A stretch of DNA of 64,000 nucleotides from Pseudomonadota bacterium (GTDB lineage: Bacteria > Desulfobacterota > Desulfobulbia > Desulfobulbales > Desulfurivibrionaceae), in the NCBI GenBank assembly GCA_018830485.1, contig JAHJRQ010000015.1, forward strand, positions 62,001 through 126,000. Direction: 5' to 3'. The first letter of the stretch is position 1; each line of letters opens with the position of its first letter. This document shows positions 13,511-46,609 of this stretch, piece after piece. The position numbers and the translations under genes are program-made. The notes below the pieces were generated by a model. It saw nothing but the letters and a program-made list of their open reading frames with translations. It was not told where the DNA came from and searched no databases.

Positions 13511-13511
13511 C

Positions 13512-15104: not shown

Positions 15105-15120
15105 TGGGATATTTTTTTAT

Positions 15121-15188: not shown

Positions 15189-15235
15189 CTTTGATTTTAT
15201 TTGAATTTCTGACACTTGGGTGAGTAGGTAAATGT

Positions 15236-15748: not shown

Positions 15749-15757
15749 CTTCTTGTG

Positions 15758-16532: not shown

Positions 16533-16550
16533 GCTTCCTTATTGTTTGTC

Positions 16551-16628: not shown

Positions 16629-16634
16629 TAATTG

Positions 16635-17480: not shown

Positions 17481-17506
17481 GGTTTTCCCGGTGTATAACA
17501 TTGTAT

Positions 17507-27743: not shown

Positions 27744-28530
27744 CCCTTCCAGGGCCAACGAAGCCAAGGCCCGGAGATTGGCGGACGCGCTCATAAGGGA
27801 ATATGCTATCACCAGGCCCGACGAGATACGCCTTGAGGATATTTCAATGGACCGGAATGTCTTGGTCAGGGAGGGTGCATTACGCGGATCGGAGGCCTAT
27901 CTAATCCGGAAAGGCAACAAAGGGATCATAAGAGTCCGCAAAGACATCCCTGAGGCCGGCAGAAAACGCTTCGCAATCGCGCATGAGCTGGGTCATTGGG
28001 AAATGCACTCAGAAGAGACCCAGCTTAAATTTTGTTCGGAGGACGACATCGGCGGCTACCTTGGAAGCCCAATGGAAATCGAGGCAAATGCTTTCGCCTC
28101 CGAATTGCTCATACCCACTCGCCTCGCAAGCAAGGAATTCAGATCGGCCACGCCATCTCTTGAGGTCGTCAAGGAGCTCTCCAGCGCATACAATGTGTCG
28201 CTGACCGCCGCCGCAGTAAAATTCATACAAATTTCAAAAGAAGACTGCATGGCTGTTTTTTCCAGGGACGGAATAGTCCGCTGGTGGCGGAAAGGAAAGG
28301 AATATTCATCCATTCCAGGCATTGAGAAACATCATCCGCTTCACCCGGAAAGCGAGTCCAGCGAGGTATTCCGGGGGAGGAAGGAATCTACCAGAATGGT
28401 CAGAGTTCCGAATGAAGCGTGGTTTCCATGGATGAGGGAAAGACGAGGGTTCGAGGTTTACGAACAATCGATTCGGCTCGGGAATTATCCGACTATCTTA
28501 ACCCTTTTATGGGTGATCTCAGAAAGTTGA
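27730..28530 (+). CDS. ImmA/IrrE-family metallopeptidase
   Basis: 266 residues. The zinc-peptidase motif is in RFAIAHELGHWEMHSEE (HExxH), with a downstream EIEANAFASELLIP helix that supplies the third ligand, both typical of ImmA/IrrE. Characterised relatives cleave repressors (ImmA-ImmR of ICEBs1, IrrE-DdrO). A C-terminal extension of about 120 residues may be a sensor domain. The start overlaps the upstream gene by 14 bp. The operon order suggests signal, proteolysis of the middle protein and release of sigma; that is inference. Confidence 0.85.
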   Translation: MFSNDPSRANEAKARRLADALIREYAITRPDEIRLEDISMDRNVLVREGALRGSEAYLIRKGNKGIIRVRKDIPEAGRKRFAIAHELGHWEMHSEETQLKFCSEDDIGGYLGSPMEIEANAFASELLIPTRLASKEFRSATPSLEVVKELSSAYNVSLTAAAVKFIQISKEDCMAVFSRDGIVRWWRKGKEYSSIPGIEKHHPLHPESESSEVFRGRKESTRMVRVPNEAWFPWMRERRGFEVYEQSIRLGNYPTILTLLWVISES

Positions 28531-28625: not shown

Positions 28626-29762
28626 TCATGGATATGATTCATGTATTTTATCAGAGAAATCAATAAGTTCATTGAGGCTCGTATCGAAAGATGACGAGAC
28701 CCGAACTAATGACGACGCCTCGTCATAGCTGTAGCCCATCAACATAGCCGTGTGGGATGGTTTGAGGCTTTGAGCAGAGCAAGCTGAACCTTTACCGATA
28801 ACTATTCCATGGGTAGCGGAGGTATAAACAAAATCGTCCGCATCAATTCCTGGTATCCCCCAAAAGCTTGTGTTTGGAAGCCGTGGTGCTTGTTTCCCGA
28901 GAATAAAAACATCTGGAAAGTGTAAACGGATGTGTTCTTCGAATTTGTCGCGAATTAGTTGAATAGATATGTGCCGGTTTTCCTGGAGAAGCTTCCCACA
29001 TTTAGTGGCCGCGGCTGATATTCCTGCAATGGCTGGGATATTTATCGTGCCGGAACGTAAATTTTGTTGTTGGCCGCCACCACAAATTAGCGGCTGAAGC
29101 GTTTTTCCGTTTCGAATAATTAGCCCTCCAATTCCTTTTGGGCCATGAAATTTGTGGCCAGAAAAAGAAATTAGATCCACCATGCTTAACTCATCTAACA
29201 ACGAAACTGGCATCTTCCCAATTGCCTGTGTCGCATCCGTATGGATGAGGCATTGAGGGGCACGTTCACGAATCAGAATCGCTGCCTCTCGTAAAGGCTG
29301 AATGACGCCAGTTTCGTTATGCGCAAACATCAATGAAGCAAAGCAGAGATTATAGTCAACAAGATCCGCAAGTTTATTCAGGTCAAAGGTTCCGTTTCGG
29401 GTTACCGGAACCCATCGGACCTCCACCCCCTGCTTTTGAAGATTTTCAAGTGATTCATTGATTGATGGATGTTCTATCTGTGAGCTCAGTATCCATCTGC
29501 AACTTGTACATCTTCGTGCCCCTTCAGCTACAGCCCATACGTTTGACTCGGTGGCGCCGGATGTAAAAATAACCTCATCATTGGGTTCCGCTCCAATCAA
29601 CGTGCGGATAGCCGCTTTCGCTGACTCAACGATCTCCTCCAGGCCGTCCAGTTGTCCATAGGCAGACGAAACATTCCAGAAGCGAGACGTCATGAACTGG
29701 GTCATGGCTTCCACTACTTCAGGAAAGGGTTTCGTTGTCGCGTTATTATCTAGGTATATCAC
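28626..29762 (-). CDS. sspA: Cysteine desulfurase of the phosphorothioation operon
   Basis: 378 residues, class V PLP enzyme. It begins MIYLDNNATTKPFPEV; the PLP Lys is in SFSGHKFHGPKG and the persulfide-forming Cys in GKGSACSAQSLKPS. It would pass sulfur from cysteine to the SspD ATP-pyrophosphatase for DNA phosphorothioation. Its ATG overlaps the sspH stop by 4 bp and it is the last gene of the seven-gene operon. DndA would be an alternative name; the neighbours favour Ssp. It is distinct from the host NifS-type gene at 46781-47929. Confidence 0.87.
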   Translation of the reverse strand: MIYLDNNATTKPFPEVVEAMTQFMTSRFWNVSSAYGQLDGLEEIVESAKAAIRTLIGAEPNDEVIFTSGATESNVWAVAEGARRCTSCRWILSSQIEHPSINESLENLQKQGVEVRWVPVTRNGTFDLNKLADLVDYNLCFASLMFAHNETGVIQPLREAAILIRERAPQCLIHTDATQAIGKMPVSLLDELSMVDLISFSGHKFHGPKGIGGLIIRNGKTLQPLICGGGQQQNLRSGTINIPAIAGISAAATKCGKLLQENRHISIQLIRDKFEEHIRLHFPDVFILGKQAPRLPNTSFWGIPGIDADDFVYTSATHGIVIGKGSACSAQSLKPSHTAMLMGYSYDEASSLVRVSSSFDTSLNELIDFSDKIHESYP

Positions 29763-32700
29763 AGCCCGGGAAGCTCATCCGAAGGAAGTAATCCATGGAT
29801 CAGGCGCAGCATTTGAACGATTCTAGGCACCTCAGACATATCTAAATATGGAACCTGAACGAAGACTGGGTGCGGTGTGTCTGCGGTTTTAACGAGCATG
29901 TGCCCTTGTCCAAGGAGCTTTTCTGCTCCGGCATTTTTCTCGCCCATTGAAACTTCAGAGGTGCCTGGACTATCGACTTTCAAAATAAGCCGGTTTCCAA
30001 GCTGGGAACGAAGTTGCATGGGCATAACTGTGTTGTCAGGTCTTTGAGCAGCAAAAATAAGGAAGATCCCGGCCGCCCGTGCTTTGATGCTAAGCCTGCC
30101 GACGAGATCAGGCACACGTTTAGCGTATTCCTCAGTTTGCATCCAATCAGCAAATTCATCGTGAATTACCCATAAGGCCGGAAGTTCTTTACCAGAGGCT
30201 TTGCGGTAGTCACGATAGTCCTTAACCTTGGCTTCTTTGAAGAGTTGGTAACGACGGTCCATTTCGCCAACAAGCCCCTCTAGAGTGACAATAGCAGCGG
30301 CGGGGTCATCGATTATCGTCTGTGATCCTGCTACAACGTGTGGCAGTAAGTCCAGAGGCCGGTAATCGACTCCAAACTTAGCGTCGATGAGGTAGATGTG
30401 GGTCTCAGATGGCGACTTGGTCAATGCAATGTAGAGAATGAGATTCTGGATGAGGATAGATTTTCCACTGCCAGTTATGCCTGCCACCAGCGTGTGCGGC
30501 TGCTTGAGAGGATCTAGAAACATGGGGGATCCATCTTCTTCCCGGATACCGACAAGCAATTGTTCCTTACACTTTACATCGAGTGAACCTCGAAAAAGTT
30601 CAACTAGGACTTGAGCGTAATTGAGAATTTGGCGATCCGGCCTTGCGACAGAGATCGAAACTCGACCGGATTCCGGTCTGACGTTAAGGATATGAATGCC
30701 GCTTGAAGTGAAGATTTCCTCTGCCTTAGCTTCGACTGCTTGAACCGTCATGTCCTTGGAGCCCTGTAACTTGATAATAGCGGCATTAGGAGTCAAAATG
30801 GGCTTGAAATCTTCCGCCAGCTTTGCGGACAGCCCGCGTGCCAACAGGGCAGAGCGCAGATCCGCTGTCGTCTTTTCGAGCCACTGTTGGCCTTCTTCGA
30901 TAGAAGCGGTTGCTTTGGCTGCGCATTGGGTGAGGTATTCGGTAAGTCCCTTACTCATATCATCTTTGAACGAGACAGTGTCTTGCAGATGTTCAGCTTC
31001 GGATGACTCGAACGCGAGGGAGTGAACTTGAGAACTTGGGGTGTGTTCACTGACTTCTGGTTGGTCGGCATTGACTGCTTCCTGAGGGATTATCTCATTT
31101 GGTTGTTCTAGCGACGTTGTTGATTGCTCGTCATTGGAACTTCTATCAAGCGTATCATTGTCATTTGCGATGTCCGATTCTGGACAAAGCTTTCGTACTA
31201 GACTGGCGTTGAACCCGGGGTGCCCTAGTTGGGTCCGCATTAAACTAGTCTTGTCGTGTTGATCTTCGTTTAGCTGGAGCAGCAGTGAGCGTGTCAAGTC
31301 CGGTCCGAATATTTCCTGTAGGGCTTGGGCTTTCGTTTTACCTCTTTGGGCTTCGATTCCTTTGCAGACGGAAACAGGTGTGTCCAGGTCCATCGGTGAA
31401 TGGACGAACACATGGGAATAGCCCCAGACGCTAAACGTACATTCACGGTTGCGAACTATGGAACGCCATTTCTCAGGGTCAAAAGTGCTGACTTCTCCGC
31501 AGCCATGTGTACCCGTGGTACGAGAAAGGATCATGTCGGAGATACGAGCCAACCAAACCTGTTGGTCGAAGGGACTTGGTTCGGGAACGAGTGCTTCGGA
31601 AATCTGGACCAGTGTGTCAGAGAGCTGTTTCTCGGAAGTTCTCGCGGCCGCATGTAAGCCTTCGTGCACAATGAACTTAGCTTCCGTCACAATGATGTCC
31701 AAATGAGGAGTCCCGTCTGGACTCCACGTTGGGGCTAGAACGAGCAAGTCGGCAATGTTAGCCCCCTCCTTTTTCCCGAGCCAATGGCTGAAATCGTCAA
31801 GGAAGCACCAAGCTGCAGCACGTTCGTGACCGAGTTCGGACTGAACAAGGTACCTGGAGAGTACCATGCCGAATAATTCACTCGTATTATTCGCACGTCT
31901 TGCTGCTTTCAGTACAAGACCTCCTGAGATACTGTTGGCGTCGTCTATAAGGCGTTTTACCAGTGACTGGACGACTTTTTCTGTCGTATCAGAAGGCAGG
32001 ATGATCCGCAGTCTTTCCTTTAGTGTATTGACGAGGAGAGTATCTCTTGCTGTGGAAGAAATGATGAGATTACGGCCCTGCGAAGTGCTTTGAATGTAGC
32101 GGATGACCTTCACCTGCTTTTGCTCAAGAAGGCGGCGGTCGAGGAGTTCATCCTGATTGACGACCCAAACTGCCAAATCGTGCGTATCGCGTAGGATACG
32201 TTCGACACCGGGGTTGTCAAAATTAAGCGTTCGCATGGGAACCGGACACTGCATGTTGGCCCACGCAAGCCTGGCGCCGTTTGCGCAAACCGAGGCAATT
32301 GCATGAAGGTAAGCCCACCCGGTTTCCGTTTGAGATGGGCAACAGAGCAACACTCGCACGGTTTGGTCCCCTTCACGGAACGGGCGCAACCGGTTCCACT
32401 GGTGCGGGTAGTGATTTATGGGTACCACAGTGTGTCGCTCAATCCATACCCACTCTGTCTTCGCCTCGGCAGAGAGTAAATCTCTACAGTAGGCAATATC
32501 CACAGGTTGCGAGCGGGAACGACTTTCACGTTTCAACCGGTTTGTCGCCGTGATGTTTATTCGCACCTTTGACAGGAAATCATCGGTGGTCTCGGAGGAA
32601 TCTTCGCCATCGTAATCACACCGCGCAACAAGATCACGATAGAGGTGTCGCAAATGATTTTCGTCATGATGCATCAGCAATACATGACACGTAATTGTCC

Positions 32701-35302
32701 CGTCTTTCGACTCCCGGTTCAACTTGTTGAGACATTTGACCAAGGTGCTGGGCAGTTCTGGTGAGTCACAATTGTACAGAAGAACAGATAAATTATCGCG
32801 CTCGTGAGGCTGGAGCCTGAGGTATTCTTGAATCTCCCCTAAAATTGTTTTAGCGGATTCCACTGCATTGTCTTCGAGAGAGCGATTTGTCATACCATGA
32901 TCAACTGGCTCGTGAAGCGTGTAAGCGCCAATAGACTGTGTTGCGACGCGCGGGAGCGGTTCCATATTCTCCCAGCAAACAGCAATTTCTGGATTTAGAG
33001 GATGTTTTAAGATTTCCCGCATGTCACGAAAAAAGAGAGTCCCGACAGCGCCATCGGAGAAGGTGATTTCCCGTTTTGAGAGTAGACTAACGATGTTGTT
33101 CAACAACTGTTCATTTCGGGCTGCTGCTGCTTCAATACGGAGCGGGTGCCACGGACAGACGATAGCGAGTTTTGGTCTGTGACCGGACTCTGCCACGGTC
33201 ACTGTTCCAATGCGAAGAACTGTCCTGAGCATCCGGCGACGGATATTTTCGTGTGGTATGACACTAATCTGTGCAAGCAGTTCACGATAAGCAGCGGTTG
33301 CTGGAGCTACATTTTTTCGTTCGAGCGCATCCTTGCTGAGCGACTCCACTGCACTGCTATAAATAATATTGAATTCTGAAAAAGCCGTTCGCAATGTGGC
33401 GATGAAGTCTTCCGAGAGCGACCTACTATTTTCTGCCTGGTCGATTGTAGAAGTGAACTCAGTGGCGAGAGAAATAATCTTTGTTTGTGCCGGAATGAAC
33501 CTGCCGCGGGCGGATGCTCCCGGGGGTGATGCAAATCCTTGAACTGAGTGAAGAGATAACGTTAAGGGGACACCCTTCCTTCCGACGGTCTCGTAATTCG
33601 CAAGGGCCTCAGCTAACGATGTCTGTGATCTTTTCATGAAGCGGCAAAGAGCATCCACGTCTGCTCCCTCCTGTGCTAGGACTGAATCCTTTGGAAAGAT
33701 CCAGGTTAGCGGCAGAGTAGCAATCCGCGTCTCCTTGCCCTCCACTGTCTCAAAGAGGGTGACTTGGAACTTGAAATTGTTCGGGTTGGTCCGGTTACGG
33801 ATCTTTTTTGTTTTTGGAGCCCCATCGAGTATTGGACGAATCTCGGAGGAATAGCTGGGAAGCTTTGTTTTTTCAAATCGGATCACTTGGGTTGAGTGTT
33901 CGGGCAACTTTCCGTAATGACGCTCAAAAAATTCACACGCATGGCGATTAGCAGAAGCAAAATGTAATGGTTTTTGTTGCCGTTCACCCTGAATAACTAA
34001 CCACGCTTGTCGGCCAGGGGTACGGAGACGGAGTGTGCGTTGGATGCAGTCTAGGATGCCCTCAAAGAGGTCGGAACATACAATCCGTTGGCCGTAGACA
34101 AAGTCTTCCCAGTCGAAAAGCAGTTTTGGGTCGTGCGAAAGTGCGTCTGAGTATGTTTCAAAAAAATCACGGAATTCATCTGTACCTCCCCCGCTTTTAC
34201 GCGGGTTCAGTTCAAGTGCCTTCAGGACAGCTTCGTCGTCATTGGTAGTTGTGATATCGCAAAGCTCAAGGATTTTCCGGGTTCTTTCGGAGAAATTCCG
34301 TGCGGTGGTTTTTCGTTGCTTCTCAAAACAGTTGCGGACAACCGACCAATCGTGATTGAAAAGAAAAGCTTCAGTAGCGCTGCTACGCGTTCCCTCTGCT
34401 TCTATGTAATGGCTAAAAGCGTTAAGGACAGGGACTGACAAGCGCGGGTTAGTTTCGTCGTTCCGCAGACTATTAAGGTATTTCCGCAACTGGTCAGGGT
34501 CGAGGAGTTGCCCACTTGGATAGCGCTTGTTGAGGTAGCAATCTTGTTTCTGGTGGTCCTCGAAAAGCTTGCGCCATTGTGAAGGCTGACCTGATTTTAC
34601 CGATCCCAGAGAAACAAAACAGTCTTCAAAAATCGGTAAATCCAATGCCGGAAGATATATTCCAGCAGCTCTAAGCAAGGGGGTCCCATTTTTATAGGAT
34701 GAAAGTACTTGCGAGATGTATCTTGCTGCTGTGTCGATCGGAAAGCGCCCGCATTCAAAAAGGCCCTTTATCATTGCCCTTACCTGCTTGGCAGGCTCAG
34801 GCGGAAGTGTCAGGCCCAATTCCTTAGTTATTACTTGAACCCAGTGGCTTGGGGCTTCGTCAGCTTCTTTAAGTTGATCGGCTGTAATCGTAGTTTTATT
34901 ACTAAGCGATGCGCGGACATCAGGTTCGCTGTCAGTGGTTATAACAATTTTCCCGTGACGGTCTGCATTGCGAACACTGACCGCAGAAGAGTGGACGAGA
35001 CATTCCTCTGGAAGGTTATAGCCTATTAGTTCGGAGGCAGGAAAGCCGAGACGAAGTAAAGTCCAATACGCATCAGAGGCCTGCGCAGCTTGAATGAATC
35101 CCGCGAGCTGCGCACCAGTAAATCCCGAAAGGACGAAGAACGCCCCATTGAACTCCGGATCCTCAAGCAGGGGGGTAAACTTTGCTGCCGTCAATCGAAA
35201 TGCAACGGCCCCCACGATGCGATCTGTATCTTTTACGCCGGCAATTTCTTGGGCCGCAGGCTGTAGCAGACTTTGTTTTTGGCTAGGTGTTTGATCTGTC
35301 AC
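29759..35302 (-). CDS. sspH: Large FtsK/HerA-type ATPase, phosphorothioation restriction component (SspH/DndH type)
   Basis: 1847 residues. The last 240 residues are an FtsK/SpoIIIE-like motor: Walker A GITGSGKS at 1608-1615, Walker B in ALWVIHDEFADW near 1710, and the IFAAQRPDN segment of the pumping ATPases. A helical, acidic linker (about 1400-1480) precedes it, and the first 1300 residues are of unknown fold. Size, motor position and placement next to a desulfurase and F/G genes match the H component of phosphorothioation-dependent restriction. The gene follows sspG after 5 bp. Confidence 0.82.
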   Translation of the reverse strand: MTDQTPSQKQSLLQPAAQEIAGVKDTDRIVGAVAFRLTAAKFTPLLEDPEFNGAFFVLSGFTGAQLAGFIQAAQASDAYWTLLRLGFPASELIGYNLPEECLVHSSAVSVRNADRHGKIVITTDSEPDVRASLSNKTTITADQLKEADEAPSHWVQVITKELGLTLPPEPAKQVRAMIKGLFECGRFPIDTAARYISQVLSSYKNGTPLLRAAGIYLPALDLPIFEDCFVSLGSVKSGQPSQWRKLFEDHQKQDCYLNKRYPSGQLLDPDQLRKYLNSLRNDETNPRLSVPVLNAFSHYIEAEGTRSSATEAFLFNHDWSVVRNCFEKQRKTTARNFSERTRKILELCDITTTNDDEAVLKALELNPRKSGGGTDEFRDFFETYSDALSHDPKLLFDWEDFVYGQRIVCSDLFEGILDCIQRTLRLRTPGRQAWLVIQGERQQKPLHFASANRHACEFFERHYGKLPEHSTQVIRFEKTKLPSYSSEIRPILDGAPKTKKIRNRTNPNNFKFQVTLFETVEGKETRIATLPLTWIFPKDSVLAQEGADVDALCRFMKRSQTSLAEALANYETVGRKGVPLTLSLHSVQGFASPPGASARGRFIPAQTKIISLATEFTSTIDQAENSRSLSEDFIATLRTAFSEFNIIYSSAVESLSKDALERKNVAPATAAYRELLAQISVIPHENIRRRMLRTVLRIGTVTVAESGHRPKLAIVCPWHPLRIEAAAARNEQLLNNIVSLLSKREITFSDGAVGTLFFRDMREILKHPLNPEIAVCWENMEPLPRVATQSIGAYTLHEPVDHGMTNRSLEDNAVESAKTILGEIQEYLRLQPHERDNLSVLLYNCDSPELPSTLVKCLNKLNRESKDGTITCHVLLMHHDENHLRHLYRDLVARCDYDGEDSSETTDDFLSKVRINITATNRLKRESRSRSQPVDIAYCRDLLSAEAKTEWVWIERHTVVPINHYPHQWNRLRPFREGDQTVRVLLCCPSQTETGWAYLHAIASVCANGARLAWANMQCPVPMRTLNFDNPGVERILRDTHDLAVWVVNQDELLDRRLLEQKQVKVIRYIQSTSQGRNLIISSTARDTLLVNTLKERLRIILPSDTTEKVVQSLVKRLIDDANSISGGLVLKAARRANNTSELFGMVLSRYLVQSELGHERAAAWCFLDDFSHWLGKKEGANIADLLVLAPTWSPDGTPHLDIIVTEAKFIVHEGLHAAARTSEKQLSDTLVQISEALVPEPSPFDQQVWLARISDMILSRTTGTHGCGEVSTFDPEKWRSIVRNRECTFSVWGYSHVFVHSPMDLDTPVSVCKGIEAQRGKTKAQALQEIFGPDLTRSLLLQLNEDQHDKTSLMRTQLGHPGFNASLVRKLCPESDIANDNDTLDRSSNDEQSTTSLEQPNEIIPQEAVNADQPEVSEHTPSSQVHSLAFESSEAEHLQDTVSFKDDMSKGLTEYLTQCAAKATASIEEGQQWLEKTTADLRSALLARGLSAKLAEDFKPILTPNAAIIKLQGSKDMTVQAVEAKAEEIFTSSGIHILNVRPESGRVSISVARPDRQILNYAQVLVELFRGSLDVKCKEQLLVGIREEDGSPMFLDPLKQPHTLVAGITGSGKSILIQNLILYIALTKSPSETHIYLIDAKFGVDYRPLDLLPHVVAGSQTIIDDPAAAIVTLEGLVGEMDRRYQLFKEAKVKDYRDYRKASGKELPALWVIHDEFADWMQTEEYAKRVPDLVGRLSIKARAAGIFLIFAAQRPDNTVMPMQLRSQLGNRLILKVDSPGTSEVSMGEKNAGAEKLLGQGHMLVKTADTPHPVFVQVPYLDMSEVPRIVQMLRLIHGLLPSDELPGL

Positions 35303-35307
35303 AGCTG

Positions 35308-36864
35308 TTATCTCAAGTAGGGATTACGGATGTAGGTGCACGCATCGCTCATGCGCTGGGCAAGCCCAAGACCGGTTAAACGCCGGGTAAGGCGCTCCTT
35401 ATTCTTGCTGAAGTCACCTTTGTCATGAAAATTTGCTGGCAGCTCGGTCGCGGCTTCATCAGGGCCAAAAACTAGGCGGTAGCGGTGGGCGAGAATCCGA
35501 AGGAGTTCATCCTCCTCTATTTTATGAGTGACATTCGCCAGAACAAGCGTGCGAAGCAATCGGTCGCTTGGCGCGTAACGGACTTTGCTGGTGCCACGTT
35601 TGTCCAGTAGACCGGCAACGCGGCCAAGCTTTTGCAATGCTGCAGCAGTACCGTCGCGAAACCCGCTTTCTGCGAGAGAGATGATCTTCTGCCGAACCTC
35701 GTCGACATTGGTCGCCTTCAGGTCATCCTCTTCAACAGAACAGATTTGGGCGAGATGCTCGGCAAGAAGCTCAGCCTTTTCTTCGTCTGGTATATCTGAG
35801 GAGTCGAGCTTTTCGTTAATTTCTGAACTGCATCCGATTGCCAACTCTACGAAGCGCCGCACAGCGAGCATTCCGCGGCCCTCGTTCTCATCACGTGTGG
35901 CAATGGAAGCCTTGCGGACTACGTCCATCCGAGGACCGGGGATCTCACAAACACAAGCCGGAATGTGCTCCATTCCTAGCCAATGATTCGATGTTTCTAT
36001 TGCATAGATGTAAATGTTGAAGGCTATGATGTGCATGAGGTATTCGAGCACATCTTGATCTGGTAAACCAAGAGAAAGAAGGCTGAGAACGTCCTTGGCC
36101 AAACGATCAAAAGCGGGGTGATTCTTATATGGCAGATATGTTCCACCCTTAACACTCGCTTTTTCCGGTTCAGCAGAAGGAAGAAGACTGGTGAGCAGCT
36201 TGTTTCGGACCGTAGATGCATCGAAAAGTGGGGAGAGCTTCTCTGCGAGAGAATGTCGCAACGACTCCGAAGCACGGCTCAGCATCAGGTAAGCTAACTC
36301 GCCGGTACGCGTAAACAAAACCCGGTCACGTTCCAGGCGTTCATTGCTCGGCTCATACAGTGCTACAGGCCCGATAGGGAACAACAGTTGCCTAGTCCAC
36401 GTCCGACCGGACTCCGGGTCCATTGTGATTCGTCTCAGGAGCGTTACACGAGAAACCAAGTCGCTAAATGAGTGGAACCGACGGCGAAGATATGAAAAAT
36501 CGGCGGTGAATTTATCACCAACGGCAGCCTGATTCTTAATTTCTTTGAGCCACACTTCCCATGCGTCCTCATCGCTGCCTTGACTCCGCGCACGAATTTC
36601 CTCCATGCGGGGATTATTAAAGAGAATGCTTCGCAGATAAATTGTTGTATTCGCGGAATATCTGATATCCTTTCCGGGCTCAGTCAGTGCAAACAGTTTT
36701 CCCGCCCTATGCATTGCTTCTGCCATTCCAAGGAACTCAAGCAACAGCGCTGATCCTGGCTGGCTCTCCAGGCGATGCCCCCAGATCGCCTCGTTGAACC
36801 AGCCTGAAAAATCCTTTTTCGAACCGGCGTAGGGCTGCGTATTCTCTTTTTCGGTGATTTTCAT
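35308..36864 (-). CDS. sspG: Phosphorothioation restriction component G (SspG/DndG type)
   Basis: 518 residues, soluble, largely helical, with no clear catalytic motif by eye. Position between an F-type P-loop protein and an H-type motor, at near-zero spacing on both sides, is the main evidence. DptG/DndG proteins of phosphorothioation restriction sets are similarly motif-poor and helical. Assignment rests on gene order. Confidence 0.7.
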   Translation of the reverse strand: MKITEKENTQPYAGSKKDFSGWFNEAIWGHRLESQPGSALLLEFLGMAEAMHRAGKLFALTEPGKDIRYSANTTIYLRSILFNNPRMEEIRARSQGSDEDAWEVWLKEIKNQAAVGDKFTADFSYLRRRFHSFSDLVSRVTLLRRITMDPESGRTWTRQLLFPIGPVALYEPSNERLERDRVLFTRTGELAYLMLSRASESLRHSLAEKLSPLFDASTVRNKLLTSLLPSAEPEKASVKGGTYLPYKNHPAFDRLAKDVLSLLSLGLPDQDVLEYLMHIIAFNIYIYAIETSNHWLGMEHIPACVCEIPGPRMDVVRKASIATRDENEGRGMLAVRRFVELAIGCSSEINEKLDSSDIPDEEKAELLAEHLAQICSVEEDDLKATNVDEVRQKIISLAESGFRDGTAAALQKLGRVAGLLDKRGTSKVRYAPSDRLLRTLVLANVTHKIEEDELLRILAHRYRLVFGPDEAATELPANFHDKGDFSKNKERLTRRLTGLGLAQRMSDACTYIRNPYLR

Positions 36865-36873
36865 GATGATCTT

Positions 36874-38724
36874 TCATTCACTGAGGTGAATGTGCTCCTT
36901 GTGGACCTGGCCAGTTGAAGTAACGTCAAGACGCATAAGAACCTCAGAGTTCGGACGAATTTGGAGGTCGCGCAGACAGCATTGCTTCAAAGAGAGAAAG
37001 TCCTCGTATGTCTCACGTGAAAAACTGGAAGGCATTGCCCCAGATGCAATGCGCATGAGAAATTCAAACCTAGGCAGTGTAAGGTCAAAGCTGAAGCTCA
37101 AGTTATTTGCCCTGAGAACTGCCTTCGGAAATTCTCCATCTGGAACGATGTCAAATCCCGGAGGGTTGGCGGCAATGGAAAGCTCCTCAAGCAGTAGGTC
37201 GCTTACTGGTGACGTGCTTAGGTCAAGGCCGGTGGCAAGGTAGACCTCATGAGCATTTTCGTCGAGCAAAAGTCCAGTCCACACGCGGTTTAGCCCACAG
37301 GCTAAGCGACGTATATGCGGTTTTGCAGGCAAGCGCCCCTCACGGATTGGATTAAGGACACTGTGTACAAAATCGCCGGCATGATGGAAGACAGTGATAG
37401 CCCAAAGTTTGTACTGCTTAAGATGGTCCTCGGAGGCATGAAGAAAAATACGGCGACGTTCGTGTGCCAGCTCGGAGAGGAATTCGCTTGATTCTTGCCC
37501 GTCTGTGATCTCCCCGCGGATATAACGAAGAATAAGCCCATCCAGTGCTGGATTTCTCTGCTTGAATGTGTCATTCGCGACTAGTTCCGCGTGTTCTTTT
37601 AGGAGTTCTTCGTCCCGAGTACCAAAAATAATAAGTTCATCGAGATCATTGGTGGTCTCCTCCCCGGCGTGGAGCATTGAAAGAAAGCGGAAAACATCCT
37701 TTTGGTTTCTCTGCGCTTTGCCCAGGTTAAAACCGAAGATATTTAAATGGATGGCGGCCTTATGTCGTGTGTCTTGTTCAAGAATTTTTTTTGCCGAAGT
37801 GCCCGGCCGAAGGACATTATCTGGAGCGTCAGGATGACCTAGAAGAGCATTTGAAAGCAGTATCAGTATTGAGCGCAGTGGAAGGTGGTGGCTTGTGCTG
37901 TCGGCGATCCGGGCAAAAGTGATCAAGCGGTGCCTGACTGCTGGCTGGCAAAGCATAGCGTGGTTAGCCCTAATGGGCGATTTGTCTCCGAAAAGGGGAT
38001 TCTCCTTTTCATCTTCAAAGCATCGCCATTCTGGACGACCAAGTATACCGTCAAGACAAAGCTGCATAAACAGGTCGCTGGGAATACGGGAAAGATTTAT
38101 GAGGCGCAGGAGAGGAAGTTGCCCAATCTCCATCGCGCCCGTGGCATGTAGAGTTACCAATTCCTTACTCAACGCCTTGAGTTCGTCAGTGCAGGTTGGT
38201 GGAAGACTCCGAATCGTTTCAAGAAGCTGACCGTCATTGACTGCGAGAACGTACGCATGCCCGCCGGTTCCGTACACATGTGCGGCAGCTTCTTCCAGCA
38301 TGACGACATGTTCAGGTTTTAAGATTCCGTTTTCTCGATATCGCCATCCCGTCAAGTCGTATATCATTGTCAGGAGTTGCGGGCCAGCTTGAGTTACAAC
38401 TTCGAATGTCTGAAAGCCAGCGTCACTTTCGTCGCGTTGGGGGAGGGATCCTGTCAGTTGCTCTGCGAGCTGGTAGCACAAGGTGGTCTTGCCATCACCA
38501 GCAGTGCCAGTCAGTACCACAGTTTTGAAGATTCCTGAGTCAAGAGGGAAGCATTCTGTGAGTTCTCCCCACGCTGGGTGCGGGAACGATAGACGACGTA
38601 GACCAAGACGGTCAGCCAATTTATCTACTTGTTCTGCCTCTTGGGCCTCGTCATCTGGTACTGGTCCATAGGCTCTCAGTAGCCGAATCCATTTTTCACC
38701 ATCGGTCATAATTGTGCCATTCAC
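36874..38724 (-). CDS. sspF: P-loop NTPase, phosphorothioation restriction component F (SspF/DndF type)
   Basis: 616 residues with a Walker A motif GTAGDGKTT at 73-81 (VVLTGTAGDGKTTLCYQLAEQL). The rest is mostly helical, and Walker B is not certain by eye. It stands between the ATP-pyrophosphatase sspD and sspG. Two start codons are possible (MNGTIM or the ATG at 38709). F components with a single ATPase domain are known in both Dnd and Ssp restriction modules. Confidence 0.75.
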   Translation of the reverse strand: MNGTIMTDGEKWIRLLRAYGPVPDDEAQEAEQVDKLADRLGLRRLSFPHPAWGELTECFPLDSGIFKTVVLTGTAGDGKTTLCYQLAEQLTGSLPQRDESDAGFQTFEVVTQAGPQLLTMIYDLTGWRYRENGILKPEHVVMLEEAAAHVYGTGGHAYVLAVNDGQLLETIRSLPPTCTDELKALSKELVTLHATGAMEIGQLPLLRLINLSRIPSDLFMQLCLDGILGRPEWRCFEDEKENPLFGDKSPIRANHAMLCQPAVRHRLITFARIADSTSHHLPLRSILILLSNALLGHPDAPDNVLRPGTSAKKILEQDTRHKAAIHLNIFGFNLGKAQRNQKDVFRFLSMLHAGEETTNDLDELIIFGTRDEELLKEHAELVANDTFKQRNPALDGLILRYIRGEITDGQESSEFLSELAHERRRIFLHASEDHLKQYKLWAITVFHHAGDFVHSVLNPIREGRLPAKPHIRRLACGLNRVWTGLLLDENAHEVYLATGLDLSTSPVSDLLLEELSIAANPPGFDIVPDGEFPKAVLRANNLSFSFDLTLPRFEFLMRIASGAMPSSFSRETYEDFLSLKQCCLRDLQIRPNSEVLMRLDVTSTGQVHKEHIHLSE

Positions 38725-38727
38725 ACT

Positions 38728-39567
38728 TTAGAGTTGGCAAATCAAGCAACCTTCCCGACTGGGTGGCTCATAGTCCATTCCGGCAAGAATTACAGCTAAT
38801 GGGACATCCTTCTTACTTTGGCGTTGTTTTTCCCGGGCCTTTTCCCAATTCTCGATGATCTGCTGCATCCTTTCTGGTCGTTCAAGATCTTCAAGTGGCT
38901 CATTCTTGCACCAAAAAAAGACGTTCCCGTTTATACGGTTTGGCTTTTCATAACTTTTCGCCTCTTCGTAAAGATGAGGGTATTTTCTTTTCAACTGAAC
39001 CCATTCTATTTTTTGTTGGTAAAAACAAAAAAAACATCCTGATCTAGTTCTTCCCCAATCTGTATATGGTGGCATTCCAATACCCGAATCTCGAAGAATT
39101 TTTTGAACCCCCTCGTAATCTATGCCATCCTCTTTGAATGGAAAAACCGCCTTGATATTCGGTTTATGACTAATATAGCCAATACGTGGCTCATCGGCAC
39201 GAATACCAACATAGTTTATGCATGGGTCGTCTCCCACATAGTTTTCAAATGGCTTGAGCTTCATCATCCTGGTACACCATCGACGATGATTCGAGGGTAT
39301 CATGCCACCATATTTACGAAGCAAATCGTCAAACGTGGTGCCGAATGTCGTTCGAACTATTTTTTTGCCTAAATAGTCCTCAAGGCGATCAATATATTCA
39401 TAAGTGTCGGGCAGTTCCTTGTCAGTATCGTGAAAAATATATTCCATATCCGCGACCCGATCTCGGAGATGGACCGCAAGTGCTGCACTATCCTTTCCTC
39501 CAGAAATGCTTAGGATGTGCCGAACAGGTTTTGCTGATTCTTTAAGGTCAGACTCAATCGTTTTCAA
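38728..39567 (-). CDS. sspD: ATP-pyrophosphatase / PAPS reductase-like sulfur transferase
   Basis: 279 residues. The PP-loop SGGKDS is at 22-27. Cysteines in RWCTRMMKLKP, SGCFFCFYQQ and the C-terminal EGCLICQL could bind an iron-sulfur cluster, as in DndC. It would activate the DNA phosphate with ATP and insert sulfur taken from SspA. Compared with DndC (about 500 aa) it is short, in keeping with the SspD type. It overlaps sspC by 14 bp. Confidence 0.85.
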   Translation of the reverse strand: MKTIESDLKESAKPVRHILSISGGKDSAALAVHLRDRVADMEYIFHDTDKELPDTYEYIDRLEDYLGKKIVRTTFGTTFDDLLRKYGGMIPSNHRRWCTRMMKLKPFENYVGDDPCINYVGIRADEPRIGYISHKPNIKAVFPFKEDGIDYEGVQKILRDSGIGMPPYTDWGRTRSGCFFCFYQQKIEWVQLKRKYPHLYEEAKSYEKPNRINGNVFFWCKNEPLEDLERPERMQQIIENWEKAREKQRQSKKDVPLAVILAGMDYEPPSREGCLICQL

Positions 39568-42500
39568 TTTTGCTCCAGAGCGCGCGGGCTACAGCGCTTA
39601 AACCTACCCGCCCGTGGGAATGAATCAGTGCTTTGATCTGTCGTTCTATCTCTAAGACTTTATTCTCTTCAGATTTAGTCCAGTGTAAAAGCTGTGTGCA
39701 TTCTATACCGTTGGGCTTTGTAAGCGCAAGCCAAACGACACGCTCAGAATTTCCAGGAGAAGGATGTCTTATGATATCAGAGTTGGCCGCCTCAGCGCGT
39801 AACATGCGTTTCACTAAAATTCCCATCCGCTGGTGGAATACTTCCTCATCGTTATCATGCCAACGGGTTGCCGATCTACGGCTTAGGTGATTTGCAAGAG
39901 ACTCTAGCCAATTACGGTATTCTAATTTGTCGTCGCCAAGTCGAAGAACGAAACTTTTCAGTTCTGTATCAGCCAGTTTTCCAGAAATTGCTCTGCATCG
40001 ATAGGTTAGTTCAGTGCGGAATTCTCTGATTGGGCTGATTGTCTCGAATGAATCCGTAATTGCCAACGCAAGTCTTTCGAGCAGCCTATCATAGCTAATC
40101 TGAATTTCCACAATTAACTTCGGAAGTTTTGCCGCAAGTGCCTCATGATCTGAGGAGGCCAGCCCTACCGCTAACGGTATCTCTGTGAAAACTAGGCTTG
40201 CCGGGTCTCTGGCTTCAAGTAGACACTTTCGAAGTGCCAAGGCTTCACGGCTTAGCTTTAAAGTATTGCGACAGTACTCGGGGGCTTCTACAATAAATTT
40301 AACAAGCGGTCGAACAACGTCAAGGATTTCTGGATTGGCGCGCTCCTCAAGTCCAAGGACTTTGCTCAAAGCATGAAATACATCCAGCCGGACTCCCTCA
40401 ATTGCACAGCGCTGAAGTTCGAAACACTCCGGCTCCTTAATGAGGCGCTGGAACTCTTCGCCGCCAAGGCGATGTTTGTAAGTCCCATCTTCATATGCAG
40501 CTGTCTGATGCCAACGAGCACCCAGGTAAATAGCAAGGAGGATCGGTAGGATTCCATCACGAGCCCCTATTGGTTCTTTTCTGAGTTCATCAAATATCTG
40601 CGAGACCGATATACGATGGCTTTCGTTATTTTTCAGTAGCCTCTCGATCGTGAACAATGCTGGGCGCAGGCGGCACTTGTCCATTTTTTCGTCTGGGATC
40701 TTAATTCCCCATCCATTTTTATCTTGGGAATGAACACCTCCAGCAAGTAGTAATGAAATGTAGATCGCTATTTCAGGTGGATTTTTGGAATCATCGAGCC
40801 CTAAGAACGGTTTGTCTGGGTGCGAAGACATAGCTTCAAGAAGAAGCGTTCTGGCACGGGATGCTGTTGAGCTAGTTACCCTCCTGTTGATCAATTCGTT
40901 TGTGACAACAGGACATTCCGGATACAAAATATCGCAAAGATATGAGAGGTGTGCGCCGATCCCGTTACTGCCAACCTTAATTCGCTCGGCCCTCCAGAAC
41001 CAATCAACGAAGGCCTCTCCGCCAGTGACATTAAGCCCAGTAAGCATTTCCTTACGGTTTTCTAGCATCTCTGTTGAGTTACGTATTTGTGACTTCAGTT
41101 CTTGACGGGCATACTCATCACCGGCAAGCTCCCTTATGTTCTCTCTAACCCACTTCCAGCATTGTAGATCTTTAGCTGCGCCAAGTAGTTCTATCGGCGG
41201 ACGCAATAGACCGACAATAACATTCGACCCAGGATGACAGCTTGGATCTACCAATTTTTTTGATGTCTCCATGAATTCCCGGTCGTTTTCGGGAAAAAGG
41301 AGGAGAGCATAACCGTCTGGATTAGCGCCAGCAGCTGAATGAAGTCCTTTTGCGCATAAGTGCTCGTAATCTTTTGCAGGGTGAAACTGGACTTCAAAGT
41401 GTCTTAGATTGCCAGTTTCAATATAGTGCCGCCGAGCAACAATTGTTTGGATTTCAAGCAGGGAAGTCACCATCCGCATCGGGTCGGCTGGTTCTCCCAG
41501 TTGTCGACGGGCGTCTTCAAAGCAATCAGTAAGATGGACACTTGTGTGCGGCCAAAGAGAGTAACCACGTACTGAGCCTCGTTCGTAAAGCACATGTTGC
41601 TTTTTTAGTAACTCGAGGGCTTTGTTAAGATTTTTCGCTGTAGAACTTCCAACTGATTCTTGAATCATCTCCTTGGTTGCAAGAAGAGAATCGTCATCAA
41701 TCAGGTTGAGAATGCCAATACTTTTAAGTGTTGCAAGGTCCGTTGCCTCAGAACCCGATGCTTGGCGCACAACAGACTCGATAATTCTCCAGTGTGTTGC
41801 CTTTCCATTAGTCATCATATATGAAAGGTTCGCTCTGAAGTACTCATAGAGGTCGACAAGTCTGAAAAACTTCGCCTGGTCTACGCTTACCCCTGCGTGC
41901 TCCTGTAAGCTTTTTGGTTCATAGCCTGTGAGGAAACCAAAAAGCGACCGCTCATTTTGGGCAAATCTCCTCAATATAGTGAGCAGAGGCGGCAATACGG
42001 TCGGATGCAGCGGGAAAAGCCTAGGCGCAAGATCCGTCAATATTTCGGTCGATGAACTACCATACAATCCAGAGTCAACTGCCCATTTCATGGATTGCCG
42101 CGCTTCGTGTAAAATGTGATCCGGCAGAGCGCCCGTGTCGATATTAAGGGCTTCTGCACATAGCTGGACTGTCTGTTCGAGAGGGTGTGCGAATATTATT
42201 TCGTCAAACCTACCAGCAACTTTGTCCCACTCACGACGAGTTGCCGTGTCCATATCTGCAGTATAGGACGAGATGCCTTGATGGAGGATGCCTAGAACTA
42301 TTAATGGATTATCGCCACTTCTAGATGCAAATTCCGCAAGGCGCTGCAAGCTGTACACGTCTGAGTTTTGTGGTTCCAGGGTCGAATATTCAAGATTTTT
42401 CCCGAGCTCATCCAATATGAGCAGAATGCCTTTGGCGCCATTTTTTTTGACCTGCTTGCGTGCCGTTGCAAGAAGAGTGAGAAGCTCTTCGGTTGTCGTG

Positions 42501-42946
42501 GGAAGTTGCGCTCCCTTGAGTCCGGCAACCTGGCCTATAACTGCCCGCCCGATTCCTCGAACGATAGGCTCTCGATCTCCAGTAACAACTACTGTAGCGA
42601 TTGCTTTCTCGCTAATAATTCCCCTCATACGAGCAGGAATTTCTTCATCGCGTCCTGCCGCAGCCTTCGCAAGCGCAAGAGTAAAGGCAGATTTGCCGCT
42701 TCCATAGTCACCTGTTATGCGCCATGCTCTTTGGCTGCTCCCCCGCTCGAAGGCGACACTGATGCGCTTAAGGCAATTAGTCACGAAGTCTGTGGCAACA
42801 TAGCTTTCGGTTGACGTCCGATCGTTCAAATCCAGTTCTATTTGAACAGAACGTCTAAAACGTGGATTGATTCTTATTAGGTCGCGCACTGTATTGCCCA
42901 CGCTGAAAGACCTCGTATTTATGTCATGGGTTGGTGTGCTTTTCAT
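39554..42946 (-). CDS. sspC: Large P-loop ATPase of the modification module (SspC type)
   Basis: 1130 residues from MKSTPTHDI; the ATG overlaps the sspB TGA (ATGA), which decides the start, and the 85-residue upstream extension in this frame is discarded. Walker A GDYGSGKS is at 79-86 (RAWRITGDYGSGKSAFTLALAKAA) and Walker B in GILLILDELGKNLEYS. Large ATPases of this layout accompany DUF4007 proteins and short PAPS reductases in Ssp modules, where the ATPase works with the nickase during strand modification. Confidence 0.82.
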   Translation of the reverse strand: MKSTPTHDINTRSFSVGNTVRDLIRINPRFRRSVQIELDLNDRTSTESYVATDFVTNCLKRISVAFERGSSQRAWRITGDYGSGKSAFTLALAKAAAGRDEEIPARMRGIISEKAIATVVVTGDREPIVRGIGRAVIGQVAGLKGAQLPTTTEELLTLLATARKQVKKNGAKGILLILDELGKNLEYSTLEPQNSDVYSLQRLAEFASRSGDNPLIVLGILHQGISSYTADMDTATRREWDKVAGRFDEIIFAHPLEQTVQLCAEALNIDTGALPDHILHEARQSMKWAVDSGLYGSSSTEILTDLAPRLFPLHPTVLPPLLTILRRFAQNERSLFGFLTGYEPKSLQEHAGVSVDQAKFFRLVDLYEYFRANLSYMMTNGKATHWRIIESVVRQASGSEATDLATLKSIGILNLIDDDSLLATKEMIQESVGSSTAKNLNKALELLKKQHVLYERGSVRGYSLWPHTSVHLTDCFEDARRQLGEPADPMRMVTSLLEIQTIVARRHYIETGNLRHFEVQFHPAKDYEHLCAKGLHSAAGANPDGYALLLFPENDREFMETSKKLVDPSCHPGSNVIVGLLRPPIELLGAAKDLQCWKWVRENIRELAGDEYARQELKSQIRNSTEMLENRKEMLTGLNVTGGEAFVDWFWRAERIKVGSNGIGAHLSYLCDILYPECPVVTNELINRRVTSSTASRARTLLLEAMSSHPDKPFLGLDDSKNPPEIAIYISLLLAGGVHSQDKNGWGIKIPDEKMDKCRLRPALFTIERLLKNNESHRISVSQIFDELRKEPIGARDGILPILLAIYLGARWHQTAAYEDGTYKHRLGGEEFQRLIKEPECFELQRCAIEGVRLDVFHALSKVLGLEERANPEILDVVRPLVKFIVEAPEYCRNTLKLSREALALRKCLLEARDPASLVFTEIPLAVGLASSDHEALAAKLPKLIVEIQISYDRLLERLALAITDSFETISPIREFRTELTYRCRAISGKLADTELKSFVLRLGDDKLEYRNWLESLANHLSRRSATRWHDNDEEVFHQRMGILVKRMLRAEAANSDIIRHPSPGNSERVVWLALTKPNGIECTQLLHWTKSEENKVLEIERQIKALIHSHGRVGLSAVARALWSKIEND

Positions 42947-43881
42947 GATAGTCGATTGTAAATTGATTTGAGAAGTGAGTTGGAGTCGCGCCGACTTGAC
43001 CGCTGAATGCCTCGTTGGTTTTGTGATTCGATTAGTGCCCATTCTTTTGGGTGGGTATTCGTTAATGCGATTAATCGCCGGTGGATATCGGCCTCTGGAA
43101 GACGGAATACTCGGCCCGGCCCACCCTCTGAAAAAGAGATATCGCGGAGAGTAAGGCGCATTTCGTTCGGATATGCGCGATCCCACCACTCGCTGAGGCA
43201 ATAGCGGAACGTGTAATCTGAAATTGAGGGCTTCGGGGCACTATTAAAGCGATAAACAGTCTCGCGCTTTCCGTGCGGCAGCTTCTTTTCTCCGCATCGT
43301 TTTACCAAGGCTAGCGCTGTTAGTGGGCTATCGAGGGAATCCTCTGGGGTACTTCTGGGCCCAGTACTCTCTCCTGGCACATACGTCCGCATAAATATGT
43401 CGAAATGCTGGCGGAGAGTCACTGCTGAAAGTGGTTTTGGCAATAACGCTATAGACCCGGCAAAATGGTCAATAGCTTCACTCGCGATAATCTCATCGTC
43501 TTGAAAAACACTGGAGAAAAAATGCCATGCATACGGCCGTTTAAGCCCCGCCCCATCGCGCCATCCTTGACATAGGTTCCAGTGGAGAATCCACAATGTT
43601 TGCAGATTTTCCAAAAACGGATCAAATCCGCCCGAACAAACAAGCACTGTTTTGGAGAAGTCAGTAAGGCTTACCACGCCCCCATTTTTCACAGCAACAC
43701 CTGCGGCTTGAACCCAAAAAGCAAGAGACTCGACCATGTTTTTACCAAGCCCAAGAGTGCTCATCCCCTTCCTCGGATCACTAAAGGGATCGATTCCTGC
43801 TTCAATGGCGGCCACAGCTTTCGGAAACCAGCTTATTCTTGGTGCGAATGATTGATGCCCGCTGAATACGAAACTCAACAC
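42943..43881 (-). CDS. sspB: DUF4007 protein, SspB-type DNA nickase
   Basis: 312 residues. The N-terminus FSGHQSFAPRISWFPKAVAAIE...STLGLGKNMVESLAFWVQAAGV is the conserved DUF4007 signature. From memory, SspB of Vibrio is of this family and nicks DNA to allow sulfur insertion in one strand. It is the first gene of the seven-gene block, 71 bp after an AbrB-like regulator, and overlaps sspC. No extra restriction-enzyme domain is visible. Confidence 0.82.
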   Translation of the reverse strand: MLSFVFSGHQSFAPRISWFPKAVAAIEAGIDPFSDPRKGMSTLGLGKNMVESLAFWVQAAGVAVKNGGVVSLTDFSKTVLVCSGGFDPFLENLQTLWILHWNLCQGWRDGAGLKRPYAWHFFSSVFQDDEIIASEAIDHFAGSIALLPKPLSAVTLRQHFDIFMRTYVPGESTGPRSTPEDSLDSPLTALALVKRCGEKKLPHGKRETVYRFNSAPKPSISDYTFRYCLSEWWDRAYPNEMRLTLRDISFSEGGPGRVFRLPEADIHRRLIALTNTHPKEWALIESQNQRGIQRSSRRDSNSLLKSIYNRLS

Positions 43882-43952: not shown

Positions 43953-44171
43953 TCATCGTTTTTTCTTTTTTTGACCGGTGGAGCTAGGTGGCTCACTGGC
44001 AATGCCAGAATCCTCGTTTTTGACTGGCGAAACCAATAAACACCCCAATTTCTCATCGAAATGAATCTCCACCCTATCTCCGACATCAACGCCAAGGTTA
44101 CGAAGCGCTGCCTCACCAAGCACTAGCCTTCTAAGATCTTGGATTTTTGCTGTGTTTAAATATGTAGCCAT
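43953..44171 (-). CDS. AbrB/MazE-like small DNA-binding protein
   Basis: 72 residues. ALRNLGVDVGDRVEIHFDEKLGCLLVSP fits the swapped-hairpin AbrB fold, and the LVLGEAALRNLGV segment is the typical start of the second strand. A short Lys-rich tail (GQKKKKR) follows. It precedes sspB by 71 bp on the same strand and lies beside three operator-like half-sites, so autoregulation and control of the ssp operon are likely. No toxin partner is adjacent. Confidence 0.75.
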   Translation of the reverse strand: MATYLNTAKIQDLRRLVLGEAALRNLGVDVGDRVEIHFDEKLGCLLVSPVKNEDSGIASEPPSSTGQKKKKR

Positions 44172-44377: not shown

Positions 44378-44405
44378 TTTTATTATGCTTCGGAGCATAA
44401 TAAAA
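44378..44405. repeat. Perfect hairpin 1 (12-bp stem, 4-base loop)
   Basis: TTTTATTATGCT, TCGG, AGCATAATAAAA. The A/T-rich stem base yields a T-run after the stem in both directions, so it could act as a bidirectional terminator for leaving or entering transcription at the right end. Confidence 0.75.
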
Positions 44406-44453
44406 TGACGATTGGCAGCGTTACGCTTCGAGGCATAACGCTGCCAATCGTCA
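44406..44453. repeat. Perfect hairpin 2 (18-bp stem, 12-base loop)
   Basis: TGACGATTGGCAGCGTTA and its exact reverse complement enclose CGCTTCGAGGCA. It begins at the very next base after hairpin 1. No coding role. It lies about 190 bp inside the first right-end TnsB site. Confidence 0.75.
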
Positions 44454-44640
44454 TGTGTTGTTCTCTGTGCAGCTGAAATGGTATTGTTTTAGCCGACAGG
44501 CCGATTTGCTAAAGGGAGTGCAGAGATATTATTAGCGCGGAAGAATTGAGCTAATACGGTTGGGTTATGTGTTAAGAAGCCCTCTTGTCTGAAAAGGCCT
44601 GAAAAACCGTGTTGGCGCGAAAATTCTTATTCGCCCGCCA
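44454..44640. other. Gene-free subterminal segment of right end
   Basis: No convincing open frame, attC or RNA structure recognised between the twin hairpins and the TnsB-site array. Confidence 0.5.
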
Positions 44641-44726
44641 TTTCCCAACTTTATTTACTATTTGCCAACTTTATTTTTCATTTCCCAACTTTATTATCCG
44701 TTTACCAACTTTATTATTCAGGAACA
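44641..44726. repeat. Transposon right end with four tandem TnsB-type sites
   Basis: Four consecutive 20-mers of form TTTNCCAACTTTATTNNNNN start at 44641, 44661, 44681 and 44701, then GGAACA closes the element. Four abutting sites in about 90 bp equal the known right-end layout of Tn7; this end faces glmS, as in Tn7 insertions. Confidence 0.92.
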
Positions 44727-44731
44727 GCTGC
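44727..44731. repeat. Right copy of 5-bp target-site duplication (GCTGC)
   Basis: Directly follows the ACA terminus, identical to 9924-9928. The centre is 21 bp from the glmS stop codon. Confidence 0.85.
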
Positions 44732-46594: not shown

Positions 46595-46609
46595 ATTCCG
46601 CTCCGTTTC

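Follow-up and report, generated by a model that had tools for sequence, protein, structure and literature searches.

How is a DNA phosphorothioation defence system put together, and what carries it from genome to genome? The question is raised by a seven-gene ssp operon in a 64,000-nucleotide stretch (hereafter the window; all coordinates are window positions) of contig JAHJRQ010000015.1, forward-strand positions 62,001 to 126,000, in the assembly GCA_018830485.1 of a Pseudomonadota bacterium placed by GTDB in the Desulfurivibrionaceae (Desulfobacterota). We find that the operon rides on a 34.8-kilobase (kb) Tn7-like transposon at attTn7, which a first-pass annotation made from the sequence alone had overlooked. 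The locus is very probably a complete SspABCD-SspFGH phosphorothioation defence operon travelling as transposon cargo, with gene blocks exchanged during its history and SspFGH acting in the mode modelled below. The system is known and its arrangement common; what the analysis adds is the transposon vehicle and the block exchange, together with two predictions, a likely nuclease domain in SspH and a resemblance between SspG and DndG.

The ssp operon

Seven intact open reading frames (ORFs), all on the minus strand, fill positions 28626-43881 in the order sspB-C-D-F-G-H-A, and each matches a PADLOC Ssp model (Table 1). The leftward operon described in the first-pass annotation is borne out, as are its gene labels (DUF4007 protein, ATPase, PP-loop protein, P-loop protein, FtsK-like motor, desulfurase), each of which profile search assigns to a named Ssp family; its "helical protein" agrees with the structural model of SspG, which also has a winged-helix-like C-terminal part. 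The tight packing it reported stands too, with intergenic gaps of 3, 9 and 5 base pairs (bp) and overlaps of 4 bp (sspH/sspA) and 14 bp (sspC/sspD), and only the sspC-sspB junction needed correction. The longest sspC ORF (1215 amino acids) reaches into sspB solely via an upstream TTG, and the best SspC model alignment begins at its residue 115; translation more likely begins with the ATG at 42946, where an ATGA overlap with the sspB stop is formed, and this gives a product of 1130 amino acids. The desulfurase gene had been described as fused into the tail of one transcript: it is close-packed at the end of the operon, as a separate ORF tied to it by close spacing alone, and from that spacing all seven genes would be expected to share one transcript.

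The proteins carry SGGKDS (SspD), Walker A (SspC, SspF and SspH) and SGHK plus GSACS (SspA), motifs which we take to be catalytic signatures. A PDB sequence search with the sspB product retrieved the solved SspB structure 6juf (E = 1.9e-23), and the same search with SspF returned just two matches, at E = 0.5. On the sspA product the DndA model almost equals the SspA model (309 vs 316 bits). With sspB, sspC and sspD together, sspF, sspG and sspH contiguous and a desulfurase sspA present, the operon is, by its sequence, a member of the SspABCD-SspFGH system as published in the available text of PMC8092258.

The transposon vehicle and its siblings

The element measures 34,798 bp, and its G+C content is mostly below that of the flanks. 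It encodes TnsA, TnsB, TnsC and a TniQ/TnsD protein, is bounded by arrays of TnsB-like sites and by a 5-bp duplication at both ends, and is inserted past glmS, with 23 bp between the R end and the glmS stop codon both here and in the sibling element of genome G405. The end-site pattern matches seven times against 0.55 expected, a number that none of 100 shuffles reaches, with six of the seven matches at the ends and one elsewhere. What weighs against a full tnsABCDE set is the tnsE-like gene, whose PF18623 score of 25.2 bits lies just under the Pfam cut-off of 26.7. We found no literature joining Tn7-like elements with phosphorothio and ssp; the defence table of Benler 2021 (PMC8649781) includes DND, and the term Ssp is absent from the available main text of that paper.

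Among 57 further genomes searched, two have a TnsC relative, with identities of 97% and 95%; both belong to the 16 genomes of the same genus. The elements of these genomes, G405 and G401, have ends and tns genes in common with the window element and carry different cargo. In G405 both ends are shared, the stretch from the capP-like gene through tnsABCDE is 92% identical to the window, 6.6 kb of other sequence stands in place of the 16-kb ssp cassette, and the left cargo also differs. G401 shares the R and L ends and has ORC/CDC6-like, PRTase-like and HAD-like genes as R-end cargo; this comparison is weakened by the element being split over two contigs, and since the tns contig starts inside tnsB, the R-side slot is visible only in part. 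All three elements are flanked by matching 5-bp duplications, the five bases being identical in the window and in G401 and different in G405. A distant case is Paenibacillus mellifer, where ssp genes have glmS on one side and tnsA-B-C-D on the other, and where repeats resembling an R end closely follow glmS; of 80 named loci, no other has Tns matches in the flank examined (single-sequence profiles). Candidate sites for its left end are a single reverse site near 54.3 kb and, near 85.8 kb, another forward array.

The R-side cargo of G405 (L035:1572-7899) comprises HNH-like, AIPR, radical-SAM-like and HATPase genes, and that of G401 (L058:283-5299) ORC/CDC6-like, PRTase-CE and HAD-like genes, with weak or absent PADLOC matches in both. 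The R end of G405 (L035:1221-1470) holds two tandem arrays of four TnsB-like sites, and an extra AATAAAGTT motif is present at the slot's inner border (8015); together these are perhaps traces of tandem insertion.

Mosaic ancestry of the operon

As judged from protein identities and trees, the operon is a mosaic in which sspA groups with Thermodesulfobacteriota and sspFGH with a Verrucomicrobia-type lineage. We compared the seven window proteins with ten chosen loci and then with fifteen. For SspA, identity is 66-70% with three loci from Thermodesulfobacteriota and 41-45% with Verrucomicrobia-type loci. For SspF, SspG and SspH it is L062, from Verrucomicrobia, that stands at 62-68%, with L073 and L120, both from Thermodesulfobacteriota, at only 34-37%. 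SspC is closest to L070 (53%), the FGH proteins of which reach 42-46%. SspD stands at 70-77% to all of these loci and SspB at no more than 44% to any listed locus, so that these two proteins say little about ancestry. A carefully computed SspA tree (46 of 48 rows, without L030 and L133) places the window with L072, L120 and L073 at a support of 100/100, and a quick SspF tree (42 of 81 rows, being the loci that also have SspA, again without L030 and L133) places it with L062 at a support of 99. In a Geobacteraceae draft genome, whose loci L063 and L072 lie on separate contigs, SspH is 84-85% and SspA 70% identical to the window's, so this combination of sspA and sspFGH may have been transferred, or inherited, as a unit.

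The same partition is seen over the 28 of 31 complete operons that remain when near copies are left out, the window included. Spearman correlations of pairwise identities are 0.85-0.88 among SspB, SspC and SspD, 0.90-0.93 among SspF, SspG and SspH, and 0.51-0.57 between the two sets, so that across these operons BCD forms one block and FGH another. SspA tracks SspB and SspC somewhat more than FGH (partial correlation 0.41 vs 0.22), with overlapping leave-one-out ranges (0.29-0.49 vs 0.19-0.31). Locus L077 presents the reverse case, its SspB and SspC being 60-67% but its FGH proteins 31-32% identical to one and the same group. Several points count against the mosaic: the SspF tree drew long-branch warnings for L070 and for L120/L073, the 28 operons were picked for the similarity of their SspH, and the genes do not share one rate.

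Structural predictions for SspH and SspG

The C-terminus of SspH is an FtsK domain by profile, and the region before it, residues 1095-1330, is by model and conserved motif likely a PD-(D/E)XK-like nuclease domain. The model of this region has a predicted local distance difference test (pLDDT) score of 89.4, and the D...ExK...Q motif (D1185, E1207, K1209, Q1226) is kept, as is S1223, in 87 of 87 sequences, near copies included. Its top structural neighbours are nucleases, namely HamA of Hachiman (Z 8.0 and 7.8) and McrC (Z 6.3), followed by N.BspD6I, BsmI and MspJI, with FokI lower and some unrelated proteins from Z 4.7 down. On the other side of the balance, a Z of about 8 at best is middling and lies in the tool's "common" range, some non-nucleases stand lower in the same list, and Foldseek with the domain model gave no match at E ≤ 0.001. 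A PDB sequence search with the domain gave no matches. The available text of PMC8092258 names no nuclease domain of SspFGH and likens SspH to FtsK only.

The SspG model (pLDDT 88.9) aligns 375 of 440 residues with DndG (7exx) at Z 16.2, the next row being at Z 3.6. DndG is a triple winged-helix protein and DndH a restriction endonuclease domain followed by HerA/FtsK (available text of PMC10853773), and SspFGH has been published as having no homology with DndFGH. Several results speak against the likeness. The root-mean-square deviation (rmsd) of the match is 8.0 and the identity 13%, a PADLOC scan at E ≤ 0.01 lists SspG families only, with no sequence-level DndG match, and Foldseek with the SspG model found nothing at E ≤ 0.001, DndG being absent from the 50 rows shown; the Foldseek lists name many unrelated folds, and absence of a family there does not exclude that family. 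A PDB sequence search with SspG gave one chance-like match (E = 0.24). The PADLOC DndG model matched none of 297 and none of 38 genomes, and as 14 controls were silent too, this is not evidence of absence. We found no literature naming SspG and DndG together, and the available text of PMC10853773 uses none of the terms SspFGH, SspF, SspG and SspH.

Distribution of the arrangement

Across the phylum, the SspF model matches seven of 395 genomes, at full length only in the window's own (726 bits) and in G296 (484 bits), which carries the operon seen in Desulforhabdus sp. TSK; the remaining matches are partial and below 35 bits. A scan of genome contigs with SspF alone returned 24 stretches, none of them a relative. 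Our survey took in 91 loci, namely the best 80 out of 167, ten plasmid loci drawn from 34 records, and G296, with L030/L120, L020/L133 and L025/L106/L109 as near copies. The order B-C-D-F-G-H-A in one direction is found in 27 of these 91 loci (some of them near copies), five of which have sspA 0.6-2.9 kb away from sspH. In 79 of the 91 loci, 1.3 kb or more of sequence is available beyond sspH: sspA abuts sspH codirectionally in 29 of these and convergently in 2, sits further downstream in 10 and upstream in 7, and in 31 no sspA was found. These counts make the seven-gene order with a tail sspA a standard arrangement, and the operon by itself is ordinary for its family. The tail sspA was accordingly dropped as a distinctive trait, which weakens the stress that the first-pass annotation had put on it in calling the system self-contained for transfer; the claim of self-containment itself gains strength from the Tn7-like element.

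Eleven Bacillota loci (L091, L094, L097-L099, L108, L121, L124, L128, L129 and L136) have sspFGH with very divergent SspB and SspC (21-28% identity to the window in the five listed), SspA not being found within the stretch. On three plasmids a gene annotated as "DNA phosphorothioation-associated putative methyltransferase" lies near sspFGH (L029:22801-24840, L024:8112-10868 and L025:3104-5278).

Host genome and neighbouring features

The host genome (2.89 Mb in 26 contigs, 97.9% complete) has one SspD and, besides SspA, four further strong class-V aminotransferase matches. Given these and the working of the Vibrio anguillarum FF-93 system with iscS (PMC8092258, available text), sspA may not be essential. 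For SspE, whose absence the earlier reading had proposed to check, a search of the host genome by the GmrSD_N domain found none: the two GmrSD_N proteins present score better to other GmrSD-type families and reach at most 54 bits to SspE over a partial stretch, and SspE was rejected as a second restriction arm. These proteins (G000:C21:1926-2636 and C13:559248-559685) are one GmrSD type IV-like and one NsnA-like.

The single PDB sequence match of SspD at E ≤ 0.001 is PptA (entry 21fy), with an IscS chain in the same entry; no literature was found joining PptA with phosphorothioate and IscS. Between tnsA and the operon, three overlapping plus-strand ORFs (26570-28530), the capP-like peptidase last, are common to the window and G405 and hence belong to the backbone and not to the exchanged cargo. 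The left cargo (10574-17501) forms a second defence-like set with a mad6/PD-T4-6-like kinase, a dGTPase (482 bits) and an HNH restriction-like gene. The small MazE-like ORF ahead of sspB was considered as a conserved Ssp regulator and rejected, no relative being found upstream of sspB in the other scanned loci; two weak matches (E = 0.15) sit elsewhere. Terminator-like sites number three vs 1.3 expected in shuffles.

Table 1. Features of the ssp operon and its Tn7-like element, in window coordinates
Feature	Position	Strand	Evidence
sspB (DUF4007), phosphorothioate-modification nickase subunit	42943..43881	-	PADLOC SspB 295 bits; PF13182 173 bits
sspC, AAA-type ATPase	39554..42946	-	PADLOC SspC 1219 bits; ATG start at 42946 (likely)
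sspD, PP-loop SGGKDS sulfur-activating enzyme	38728..39567	-	PF01507 41 bits; PADLOC SspD 366 bits
sspF, P-loop protein (TGTAGDGKT)	36874..38724	-	PADLOC SspF 726 bits
sspG, predicted DndG-like protein	35308..36864	-	PADLOC SspG 464 bits; model pLDDT 88.9; 7exx Z 16.2
sspH, nuclease-like domain and C-terminal FtsK/HerA motor	29759..35302	-	PADLOC SspH 1610 bits; PF01580 115 bits
SspH residues 1095-1330, predicted PD-(D/E)XK-like nuclease domain	31313..32020	-	D1185, E1207, K1209, Q1226
sspA, cysteine desulfurase	28626..29762	-	PF00266 200 bits; PADLOC SspA 316 bits; 4-bp overlap with sspH
Small MazE/AbrB-like ORF ahead of sspB, possible regulator	43954..44171	-	PF04014 E 0.015, below cut-off
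Terminator-like hairpin (25-bp arms), then T-rich stretch, between R end and operon	44405..44454	-	
capP-like M78 (IrrE/ImmA) peptidase, shared backbone	27721..28530	+	PADLOC capP 202 bits; PF06114; retained in G405
tnsA	25309..26136	-	PF08722/PF08721
tnsB	23099..25663	-	PF09299; PADLOC TnsB
tnsC	21378..23102	-	AAA_22, TniB
tnsD/TniQ target selector	19510..21375	-	PF15978 340 bits; PF06527
tnsE-like	17926..19506	-	PF18623 25.2 bits, E 1.6e-5
Second cargo stretch: Ser/Thr kinase, dGTPase, DUF5677, HNH, MauJ-like genes	10574..17501	-	
Transposon R end, outer base 44726 (TGT...)	44641..44726	-	four TnsB-like sites, 20-bp spacing
Transposon L end (TGT...)	9929..10080	+	TnsB-like sites 9940, 10066; imperfect one near 10019 by eye
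Target duplication GCTGC (5 bp), R side	44727..44731		
Target duplication GCTGC (5 bp), L side	9924..9928		
glmS, host gene; attTn7 just past its stop	44750..46645	-	PF01380, GATase_6

Proposed mechanism and alternative explanations

Family membership suggests that SspA would take sulfur from cysteine and SspD activate it, after which the SspB nickase and the SspC ATPase would set it into one DNA strand, as known for SspABCD; the published system is marked by single-strand phosphorothioates at CCA. SspFGH would then attack unmarked DNA, as published for FF-93. Models and conservation suggest a division of labour in which SspG recognises or docks on DNA via its DndG-like fold, SspF serves as an ATP-dependent sensor or gate, and SspH translocates on DNA by its FtsK/HerA motor and cuts by the PD-(D/E)XK-like domain. 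The whole cassette occupies a slot between the glmS-proximal transposon end and tnsA, where sibling elements have other cargo, and inside the operon FGH and BCD would have been swapped as blocks with the gene order unchanged.

That the genes instead form BREX or another defence system sharing BrxC-like and PP-loop parts, the outcome that the earlier reading had named as speaking against it, has next to no probability left: SspC does score 426 bits to BrxC and SspD 40 bits to BrxP, but the Ssp models stand far higher (1219 and 366 bits), no BREX family is listed for SspB, SspF, SspG or SspH, and PglX and PglZ were not found among the scanned neighbours. An operon that modifies DNA to leave an epigenetic mark only, its restriction arm being inactive or in another role, would resemble most published sspBCD sets, which have no known restriction arm (PMC8092258, available text); with sspF, sspG and sspH intact here, and the Walker A motifs and D...ExK residues of SspH kept, we regard this as improbable. 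A more serious competitor, though still a doubtful one, holds that the SspG-DndG likeness and the SspH nuclease domain reflect independent use of common parts, so that SspFGH and DndFGH are analogous and not homologous. Winged helices and the restriction endonuclease fold are indeed common parts, and the missing DndG profile match, the non-significant Foldseek result and the high rmsd all lean that way; the lone DndG row, far above the rest of its list, leans the other way, as do the shared F-G-H naming order, the P-loop F and the motor H, DndH having in PMC10853773 (available text) the endonuclease-then-HerA/FtsK layout that is predicted for SspH.

On balance we lean towards a common origin, with SspFGH and DndFGH as one ancient arm, its G subunit of one fold and its H subunit a PD-(D/E)XK nuclease linked to an FtsK/HerA motor; this three-gene arm would have been block-swapped among unrelated modification sets without change of gene order, in operons moving as cassettes in a cargo slot of Tn7-like transposons. 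Should SspG prove to be a DndG, two systems described in print as unrelated would have one mechanism in common, and a Tn7-like vehicle with block exchange would account for one mark pairing with many restriction arms. The SspH data supply residues to mutate in a system for which the available text of PMC8092258 names no nuclease.

Comparison with known systems

The closest published counterpart is SspABCD-SspFGH of V. anguillarum FF-93 (PMC8092258, available text), which likewise has sspBCD beside sspFGH, Walker A in SspF and an FtsK-like end of SspH. It differs in using iscS as the tested desulfurase and in having sspFGH as a separate operon, whereas in the window sspA closes one tight seven-gene run on a Tn7-like element. 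In FF-93, SspFGH damages DNA that lacks the mark and is toxic without SspBCD, and this is relieved by SspBCD of another strain (same source), a finding that fits free exchange of arms. The loci of Sphingomonas paucimobilis plasmid NZ_CP065669 and Desulforhabdus sp. TSK have the same seven-gene order and direction and the sspH/sspA overlap; they differ in FGH proteins only 34-37% identical to the window and in having no Tns match in the stretch examined. DndFGH resembles the window's arm in the DndG fold modelled for SspG and would resemble it in the restriction endonuclease and HerA/FtsK layout of DndH (PMC10853773, available text), which is predicted for SspH, but pairs with Dnd double-strand marks, and SspG has no sequence-level match to DndG. 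The MADS system is more remote: the SspG C-terminus scores 36 bits to MAD7, far under its cut-off of 410 bits, SspH scores 68.5 bits to mad8, and no MADS modification genes were matched among the scanned neighbours, the kinase at 10574-11626 fitting mad6 in part. As for the vehicle, tnsA adjoins the R end in Tn7 itself, whereas in the window element a big cargo stretch separates the two. In its other features, tnsABCD(E), three left and four right TnsB sites and the glmS attachment site, the element is like Tn7 and the Tn7-like transposons described in the available text of Benler 2021 (PMC8649781).

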